From Paraphaeosphaeria minitans (taxonomy: Eukaryota > Ascomycota > Dothideomycetes > Pleosporales > Didymosphaeriaceae), in contig WJXW01000002.1 of NCBI GenBank assembly GCA_015832175.1, positions 1,302,001 through 1,366,000 on the forward strand: a stretch of DNA of 64,000 bases. Reading direction: 5' to 3'. The notes below the pieces were generated by a model, which was given only the letters and a program-made list of their open reading frames with translations, was not told the origin of the DNA and made no database searches. The position numbers were made by a program, and so were the translations under genes. Position 1 is the first letter of the stretch, and each line of letters begins with the position of its first letter. Shown piece after piece: positions 28,301 through 30,298 of the stretch.

Positions 28301-29637
28301 CTGAAACGCAAACGTGTAAAGTATTCAGCATCATGAGCTGGAGCGTGCTAAGGCATTGCGAGCAGATCCTTTGAATGCATTTGGTACGCGGCGTGGAGCA
28401 CAACGGTCGCAGTATAGAAACCAGAGTAAGCTTCATACTGCGAAAGTATCCATCCTCCCCAACATGATAAACCTTTGATGGGTGCTGGTGCCTTTTGTCG
28501 AATCCTTCAGCCTAAACTGAAACGGCGCCCAGCTGACCTTTGACAGGGCGATATCTTTAGTTTGAGCGCAATCTTCCAAATGCACGTTGAGCATCTACAA
28601 GTCGGCGAAAAACTGAACACATCTTTGGGAGCAGTATGGGTGGAGCCCCCAATGCTTTTTCAAAGCCTCCCTGCTCTTTAAGACTACTCTGCACCCATTC
28701 GAGGTTGCCCACGGACAGTTGACCTCTTTCGGGGTGCGGACCACTGATTTTGTGTGATCTAGTGCTGCAGTATACTGGAAGAAGAAAGCACCACAGCTGT
28801 TTTGGCACGGGATTGTGCGAGGAGAGAGGCTGCGTAGACGTAGCAGGGACGGTAGTAGATCAACGCGTGGATAGCCGTTGAAAAGCCCGCGATCGGTGAT
28901 GGACCGCGCGAGGTCAGTGGAGTGTTGAGATGGCGAAATTCAGTGCGGACCGCAACAGGCTGTAAAGAAAGAGGAACGCCTGCTGCAGAATGGAGATGCG
29001 TATGAGGAACGGACGCGTTGGAAAGGAACGTAAGAAATAATCGTGGGAGGGACATGATTCAAGGGCCATAGCAGAGGTCTACTGGTGCTGAAAAAGACAA
29101 TTCTTGTGCCTAAGAACATTCAGCATACCTTGTTAGTTTTGAGTTTTACGACCATATGATAGCTTGAGTACTTACAAGATGATATCAGTCCCTATAGTCC
29201 TACACCTCGAGGGTAGCGCTCCACGGCGGCTCGTTAATGGCACTGACGTATTGTAGAACAGACCTATGCGGATCAACTGAAATGACGCGACGGTGTGCGA
29301 TTCCATCGTGGACATGGACACCAAGATGTCCTCGGTCTTCGATAGACGCAGTGAATTACAGAATAGTCAATGGAAATTGGCGTAGTCGCCCTACAAGCAA
29401 ATTCACTGCGAAGCTTATATGATTTCTTGTTGCAGATGTGTGGAGAAGCAAAAGAATAGTAGACCTTGATGGCAATTCTAAGTAGTTGCTCTCAGACGCT
29501 GAGCACACATACTGCTAATCTTCCCACATTCTCGTACTGATGAAGATTGTTTACAAACTAAAAGAAAATCGAATTCTCGTGGTGGACAAGAATGCAAAAA
29601 TATGTTTCCCGTAAACTGCTGGTGGAGCAGACGAATA
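19366..29637. other. Gene-poor block of about 10 kb
   Basis: No open frame here shows a conserved domain, a plausible splice structure or one-sided coding composition. The longest (20083-20601, 172 codons) has antisense competitors. A visibly AT-richer pocket occupies about 27000-27900. Short frames that look slightly coding-like occur at 26080-26307 (-), 27438-27785 (-) and 28759-29055 (-), but I cannot tie any to a family. The block could hold decayed repeats, long non-coding RNAs or lineage-specific genes. The tRNA-Leu gene at 29638-29785 marks its right edge. Confidence 0.5.
29596..29600 (-). terminator. Pol III T5 terminator after tRNA-Leu
   Basis: Five T residues on the minus strand, 38 nt past the tRNA 3' end. 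It is the first run of four or more T I see downstream. Confidence 0.6.
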
Positions 29638-29681
29638 TGATGAGAGTGGGACTCGAACCCACGCCACTTTCGTGACCAGGA

Positions 29682-29697
29682 AATGATGTTAAGAGAA
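29682..29697 (-). other. Canonical tRNA intron (16 nt), position 37/38
   Basis: On the minus strand it reads TTCTCTTAACATCATT, between base 37 (G) and base 38 (T) of the anticodon loop. This is the site cut by the tRNA splicing endonuclease in eukaryotes. Confidence 0.8.
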
Positions 29698-29711
29698 CCT
29701 TAACCTGGCGC

Positions 29712-29761
29712 CTGCATCTGTGAGTAAGGTGTCAAGGCGTATTGATTAGAACCGAACTCAC
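29712..29761 (-). other. 50-nt D-stem insert of the tRNA gene, resembling a spliceosomal intron
   Basis: On the minus strand it starts GTGAGT, contains TTCTAATCAAT (branch-site-like), and ends ACAGATGCAG. Its size falls in the range of this genome's mRNA introns (45-85 nt for most). Excision as GT-AG restores TTATGGCGCCAGG, the normal D-arm/anticodon-arm junction. The boundary is ambiguous by one G because a G occurs on both sides. It is not at the position used by known eukaryotic tRNA introns. Confidence 0.75.
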
Positions 29762-29785
29762 CATAACCAACTCGGCCATCTCACC

Positions 29786-30298
29786 GTGATGTGATGCGGG
29801 GAGATGAAAAATACTCATATATATAGCAGTTAAAAAAAGAAGCAATCATACTGTGGTTGATGCGGATTATACATCCGCTAAAGAAGGACGCACTGAGATT
29901 TTTTACGTAGGCGGGCCGATTAACGCGAATTAGTCAGGGCCCGAAAATTTCGTGGCAACGAACCACAGCGGAGGAATAGGTATAACCTTGGCGAGCTCCT
30001 AGATTCGCAGCGATCTGGTCTCAAATACATCTCGGAAGATGCAAGTAATTTGGAAGTTGGTTTTTACACAAGGGGCCTACTATCAAATTTCTAGTCGTAG
30101 TTGTTGGCTGTTGTACTGTGCGACCTGCAGTGACCGATCCCAGCCTCATAAACATCACACAGAGCTTCATTGAGAACTCCACAGTCCTTTCATGACGATG
30201 GCAAGCCAAATTAGCTTCCGTTCGATGTCCCATATAGTACGTGGATTCAACCGCTGCGTTACATGTACGACGATGCCTAGGACTATATCGGAATAGCA
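29786..30298. other. Intergenic region between tRNA-Leu and the lactate dehydrogenase gene
   Basis: Upstream flank of the tRNA (AT-rich, TATATATA near 29818) and 3' flank of the convergent-side minus gene. No gene seen. Confidence 0.5.

Follow-up and report, generated by a model that had tools for sequence, protein, structure and literature searches.

A tRNA-Leu(AAG) gene in the 64,000 nt stretch of DNA analysed here (the window, C2:1302001-1366000 of a 47.45 Mb genome in 30 contigs) is interrupted in its D stem by a 50 nt insert which, on the evidence of its sequence, is very probably a U2-type (mRNA-type) spliceosomal intron in a nuclear Pol III-type tRNA gene, and one of at least 15 in the genome. 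It is likely, if somewhat less firmly so, that the spliceosome is an obligatory tRNA maturation machine in this fungus: all initiator Met genes, all Trp genes and probably all Leu(CAG) genes would require it, the Trp precursors then also passing through the tRNA endonuclease, such that translation initiation would depend on the spliceosome.

The window gene, which lies on the minus strand (29638..29785), is 148 nt long with two introns, and was identified both by direct reading and as a match to RF00005 (29785-29638, minus) scoring 37.0 bits against a gathering score of 29; it is the sole Rfam match in the whole window at the gathering threshold. All of its features are on the same strand. Exon 1 (nt 1-24; 29762..29785) extends from the 5' strand of the acceptor stem to the 3' strand of the D stem, and is followed by the proposed spliceosomal intron (29712..29761), with the 5' splice site GTGAGT at 29756..29761 and the 3' splice site GCAG at 29712..29715. 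Exon 2 (29698..29711) contains the AAG anticodon, and precedes a separate 16 nt intron at the canonical 37/38 position (29682..29697), the CTTAA of which is complementary to the anticodon region; exon 3 (29638..29681) comprises the 3' strand of the anticodon stem, the variable arm, the T arm and the end of the acceptor stem. The A box, TGGCCGAGTTGG (29767..29778), is uninterrupted, the B box is GGTTCGAGTCC (29649..29659), and a TATA-like stretch is found around 36-40 nt upstream of the gene (29817..29825). The initial annotation, made from the letters of the window alone, had described the D stem insert, the anticodon, the 37/38 intron and a type II variable arm, all of which direct reading and the Rfam match bear out. 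It had also assigned a T5 terminator; the T5 run does exist (29596..29600) and may be a Pol III terminator, but it is 38 nt beyond the end of the gene.

Excision of both introns leaves 82 nt, and the restoration of a complete tRNA by exact GT-AG removal, as originally proposed, is corroborated by the identity of this product to the mature sequence shared by three insert-free Leu(AAG) genes, on contigs C8, C12 and C1. The insert can be placed in three equivalent positions that give the same product, one of which has GT-AG boundaries. The branch site first suggested, TTCTAAT, is probably the wrong one, being 34 nt from the 3' end of the insert, whereas the branch A of mRNA introns is mostly 10-12 nt from the end. 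Likelier candidates are CTTAC (13 nt from the 3' end) and CTCAC (9 nt), which overlap in a region at 29720..29728 placed by analogy with mRNA introns. With a branch site that does not conform to CTRAY, the window insert is the weakest of the 15; its donor can also form a 6 bp hairpin with ACTCAC.

The insert is not peculiar to this one gene: 14 further tRNA genes were found to carry inserts of the same type. The full set, with exact GT-AG inserts of 49-57 nt, consists of genes for Leu(AAG), Leu(CAG) (two), Pro(AGG) (two), Pro(TGG), Val(CAC), Trp (two), Ser(CGA), Arg(TCG), Thr(CGT) and initiator Met (three). Searching the genome with the window gene using blastn identified a tRNA-Leu(CAG) gene (C2:4313256-4313403) whose 51 nt insert (GTAAGT...CAAG) is one base from the site in the window gene and different in sequence. 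Reading of tRNA matches and their flanks added an initiator Met gene on C1, with an insert (GTAAGT...ACTAAC...TTAG) at 38/39; a Ser(CGA) gene on C4, interrupted in the acceptor stem after nt 3; a second Leu(CAG) gene (L055, C10:238790-239060), interrupted after nt 10; and a Pro(AGG) gene on C7, interrupted in the D loop. Two further initiator Met genes, one of them on C17 and both with inserts after nt 45, emerged from blastn with spliced forms, whilst blastn with Trp and ten other tRNAs located Trp on C14, Arg(TCG) on C3 and Thr(CGT) on C10. The remainder, Pro(AGG) on C1, Pro(TGG), Val(CAC) and Trp on C5, were found using short patterns combining an A box with GTRAGT or GTAAGT. Ten of the 15 inserts were therefore detected by Rfam, ARAGORN or blastn without any splice site criterion, and are referred to as unselected below; four were detected by donor patterns, and one was the initial finding.

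The inserts occupy the acceptor stem, the D arm, the anticodon loop (38/39) and the variable loop, following nt 3 to 25 in 12 genes, nt 37 (equivalent to 38/39) in one and nt 45 in two. The canonical 37/38 position is used by none of them, the initiator Met gene on C1 coming nearest. An ordinary 37/38 intron is, on the present reading of the boundaries, found in addition in ten of the 15 genes.

Approximately 76 nuclear-type tRNA loci were located by hand count, of which 15 are interrupted, although this set is incomplete and partly selected. The Rfam search of the genome, in which 62 of 1307 candidates were scored, gave at least 52 matches, four of which look mitochondrial and three of which have GT-AG inserts; the large blastn search of tRNAs against the genome had 40 of 77 candidates scored. 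Seven yeast tRNA queries had no match in the genome, and Phe, Tyr, His, elongator Met and Val(AAC) are outside the located set. Every gene found was interrupted for initiator Met (3/3), Trp (2/2), Leu(CAG) (2/2), Val(CAC) (1/1) and Thr(CGT) (1/1), as were 2/3 for Pro(AGG), 1/2 each for Pro(TGG), Ser(CGA) and Arg(TCG), and 1/4 for Leu(AAG). On the number of other Leu(AAG) genes, which the initial annotation regarded as bearing on the status of the window copy, the three intact copies located make its isoacceptor redundant.

Automated prediction copes poorly with these genes. ARAGORN missed the window gene in bacterial mode and called it tRNA-Thr in intron mode, in which Pro(AGG) on C7 became tRNA-Pyl; it also mislabels the Arg(TCG) gene, the identity of which was assigned by eye. 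When given spliced forms, it called a tRNA in 13 of the 15 cases, with both Trp genes called after a one-base correction of the canonical intron, whereas with the insert retained a tRNA was still called in two (Ser and the initiator Met on C17). These calls do not fix the boundaries of the inserts, as in a sliding-deletion control ARAGORN called an end-to-end tRNA at many wrong offsets.

Evidence for the nature of the inserts comes from their likeness to the mRNA introns of the same genome, which the initial annotation had claimed for the window insert and which holds for length, splice sites and branch spacing across the set. GT-AG dinucleotides are found at the exact exon boundary in every insert, including the ten unselected ones, for which the chance product is about 5e-22 with equivalent placements counted and uniform bases. 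A scan of 262,020 bases for mRNA introns in open frames, which required a GTRNG donor, a YAG acceptor and CTRAY 6-23 nt from the end, gave candidates with a length peak at 45-59 nt (35 of 76, against 4 of 30 in that range for a reversed-sequence control). The 49-57 nt tRNA inserts are inside this peak, and the introns of a neighbouring gene, judged by eye from the sequence and tblastn gaps, are 57, 45 and 54 nt long. The branch A was 10-12 nt from the end in 25 of 36 mRNA introns, given a scan covering 6-23 nt only; 13 of the 15 tRNA inserts have CTRAY with the A 10-13 nt from the end, the exceptions being Arg(TCG) on C3 (CTTAC) and the window gene (CTTAC or CTCAC). Donors of the form GTAAGT are more frequent in the unselected inserts (6/10) than in mRNA introns (2/35; p = 0.0006), perhaps because strong sites are needed when splicing is not coupled to Pol II; the difference in CTAAC (7/10 against 14/35) is not significant (p = 0.15). 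No insert contains TTTT (0/15), but the signal is marginal, since 4.8% of shuffled sets are likewise free of it, and mRNA introns (3/35) do not clearly differ; TTTT depletion was dropped as a sign of Pol III transcription, being too weak. The idea of a spliceosome-like intron in a two-intron tRNA is supported more by the 14 other genes than by the one in which it was noticed.

An indication that these introns are removed comes from tRNAs that have no substitute in decoding, namely initiator Met and Trp. Using blastn with spliced forms, no uninterrupted gene was found for initiator Met (13 of 13 candidates scored), nor by blastn for Trp (20 of 20), although very common words are passed over in the DNA search, which could in principle have missed an uninterrupted copy. 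Hence splicing of the inserts in these genes is to be expected, most likely with the spliceosome as agent and a Pol III pre-tRNA as substrate. The three initiator Met genes, with two different insert sites, give one identical 72 nt spliced tRNA, so each site serves as the uninterrupted control for the other, and the two Trp genes likewise yield a single spliced sequence. Removal of the insert also reproduces uninterrupted copies of Leu(AAG) (three), Pro(AGG) (one) and Pro(TGG) (one). Between the two initiator Met inserts after nt 45, 34 of 53 aligned positions are the same, with GTANGT, CTAAC and CACAG kept and the exons identical; similarly, the two Pro(AGG) inserts agree at 41 of 51 positions between identical exons. 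In the Arg(TCG) gene on C3, one pair of the anticodon stem has changed on both sides relative to the uninterrupted copy (TTAGT/ACTAA against TTGGT/ACCAA).

Maturation can be envisaged as follows. Pol III would transcribe the interrupted gene through its A and B boxes, the spliceosome would remove the GT-AG intron in the nucleus, allowing the cloverleaf to form, and end processing would come after this, with the tRNA endonuclease and ligase then excising the ordinary 37/38 intron where one is present. Excision of the latter probably follows the spliceosome, because Sen54 is reported to contact the D arm of the tRNA (available text of PMC4090602). As no uninterrupted initiator Met or Trp gene was found, the spliceosomal route should be obligatory for translation. 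In the Leu(CAG) gene on C10, the insert splits the A box after TGG; by eye, the closing CAG of the intron followed by CCGAGCGG re-creates a near A box.

How the inserts arrived is a separate matter, and spread into tRNA genes by a mobile introner-like element, which would be compatible with spliceosomal removal, is doubtful. The inserts belong to one size class with GTAAGT and CTAAC words in common, and pairs among 12 of them have a median identity of 0.59, compared with 0.53 in a sample of 300 pairs of mRNA introns, where the highest value was 0.65; that value is surpassed by several insert pairs from unrelated tRNAs, with the initiator Met insert on C17 and the Trp insert on C5 reaching 0.71. 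The available text of PMC9860276 counts Pezizomycotine fungi among the groups containing introners. Introner-like elements were also reportedly described in Dothideomycetes by van der Burgt in 2012, as spliceosomal introns gained in many genes. The present inserts differ in having no repeated genomic copies: 12 of the 15, searched as DNA genome-wide, matched only themselves (12 of 12 candidates scored), so there appears to be no recent introner family among them, and the initial suggestion of an introner-like insertion is not borne out if taken to mean a family of similar copies. Stronger splice signals in common could suffice to raise these identities, and the excess likeness may represent either this or an old, decayed family.

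Less likely still is transcription of the genes by Pol II, or by both polymerases, in which case the introns would be spliceosomal and their splicing of the ordinary Pol II kind. Spliceosomal splicing is normally coupled to Pol II, and TATA-like words occur up to 60 nt upstream of 12 of the 15 genes, although fewer than 60 nt were available for three of the genes, and A+T-rich flanks often contain such words. However, the A and B boxes are kept, and a run of at least five T is found within 13 nt downstream of 11 of the 15 genes (the Ser gene has one at 34 nt and three Leu genes none within 40 nt). U6 is likewise a Pol III product. In some fungi it carries spliceosomal introns (available text of PMC5832005).

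In archaea and the red alga Cyanidioschyzon, the tRNA splicing endonuclease cuts non-canonical tRNA introns at bulge-helix-bulge motifs, and it is very unlikely that the inserts belong to this class. Their positions in the D arm, at 3/4 and near 45 do resemble the archaeal list in the available text of PMC4090602, and that of PMC9602550 describes D and T arm introns in C. merolae; like the tRNA introns of C. merolae, nucleomorphs and archaea, those found here affect the D arm and other sites, with several per gene. Bulge-helix-bulge recognition is described for C. merolae and archaea in the available text of PMC4090602. The motif comprises a 4 bp helix between two 3 nt bulges at the splice sites, together with an inner helix. 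In a simple pairing test on 12 of the genes (all but Trp on C14, Arg and Thr), none had a four-pair central helix plus an inner run of at least three pairs; the nearest, as central and inner pairs, were Pro(AGG) on C7 (4+2), Pro(TGG) (3+5), initiator Met on C17 (3+4) and Val (3+3). Nor would such recognition explain the conserved donor, branch and AG signals. How nucleomorph tRNA introns are spliced is called unknown in PMC4090602.

That the interrupted genes are pseudogenes or dead duplicates is the least probable reading: the available text of PMC4090602 says that eukaryotic tRNA genes with short D or T arm insertions are for the most part presumed pseudogenes (with nucleomorphs and C. merolae as exceptions), and uninterrupted copies exist for Leu(AAG), Pro(AGG), Pro(TGG), Ser(CGA) and Arg(TCG), but the exons are intact, the inserts diverge whilst exons and splice signals stay, the Arg(TCG) stem has changed on both sides of a pair, and all the initiator Met and Trp genes found are interrupted. 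A recently killed copy, as the initial annotation had allowed, is possible for the window gene, given the three intact AAG genes, and the same may be true of the interrupted copies of these five redundant isoacceptors taken alone, but the reading does not explain initiator Met and Trp, and fits the set poorly.

The preferred reading, of spliceosomal introns in Pol III-type tRNA genes, has its closest parallel in the U6 snRNA and U3 snoRNA genes of fungi, which are likewise small structured RNA genes with normal spliceosomal introns; the difference is that here the host is the tRNA family, with many sites in many genes. In the available text of PMC5832005, U3 introns extend to Dothideomycetes, and no small structured RNAs apart from U3 and U6 are known in which introns are frequent. 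U6 has a single match in the present genome, end to end over 102 nt and with no intron (47 of 2663 candidates scored). An mRNA-type intron has reportedly been found in fungal nuclear 18S rDNA, to judge by a title cited in PMC11782384. In that case too, a spliceosome-type intron would interrupt the gene of a structured RNA produced by a polymerase other than Pol II, although the RNA is an rRNA, transcribed by Pol I, rather than a tRNA. Canonical nuclear tRNA introns, at 37/38 and removed by endonuclease and ligase, are carried by ten of the 15 genes as well; the GT-AG inserts are distinguished from them by being elsewhere, around 50 nt long, and equipped with mRNA splice signals.

No report of spliceosomal introns in tRNA genes was found in the literature searched, a body that did not extend to subscription journals and preprints. 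The word stem 'spliceosom' is absent from the available text of PMC4090602, and in that of PMC13247085 the matching words occur only in a cited title on non-spliceosomal tRNA splicing. In the related Paraconiothyrium, 114 tRNAs were predicted by tRNAscan-SE, with no mention of split tRNAs in the available text (PMC8872350).

In standard teaching, the introns of nuclear tRNAs form a class apart, excised by endonuclease and ligase; if spliceosomal introns can also reside in tRNA genes, that separation of the two splicing systems is not absolute. The spliceosome would have a tightly folded Pol III product among its substrates, initiation and Trp decoding would be coupled to the spliceosome, and, in the case of Trp, one RNA would be processed by two unrelated splicing systems in sequence. 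As ARAGORN misreads such genes, fungal genomes thought to lack a tRNA may hide interrupted ones. Intron gain in essential, tightly folded RNAs also becomes directly testable.

The genome is from the Pleosporales and probably from Paraphaeosphaeria minitans, a species indicated by one protein: a neighbouring L-lactate dehydrogenase open reading frame matches PMIN06_007388 of P. minitans with 100% identity along its full length. The best named match of a sulfate permease open reading frame is to Didymosphaeria variabile (85%). Exact patterns had no matches in viral contigs or in bacterial and archaeal contigs. The short-pattern matches in the genome itself were mostly to sequences other than tRNAs; 14 places were read (nine and five), of which four were interrupted tRNA genes and ten were not tRNAs. 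Amongst these matches is a dispersed TAGYNRAGAGG...GTAAGT repeat that is not a tRNA, and two A+T-rich repeats that are nearly identical to each other, each with GTAAGT after a degenerate A box (L082, C15:1350080-1350320; L083, C19:321240-321480) look like members of a mutated repeat family and were likewise rejected. Strings similar to TAGYNRAGAGGYRGGTAAGT constitute a dispersed repeat in the genome, whilst TAGTATAATAGGATGTAAGT, also not a tRNA, recurs near many contig ends and is a subtelomeric repeat judging by its places. One of the 52 Rfam matches (L032, C10:840122-840236, minus strand; 53.4 bits) is tRNA-like, and the long GC-rich insert in its anticodon region lacks GT-AG boundaries. Finally, two mitochondrial-looking tRNAs (L017 and L020, C3:2835700-2858100) are found in a nuclear contig, representing either an insertion of mitochondrial DNA or an assembly join.
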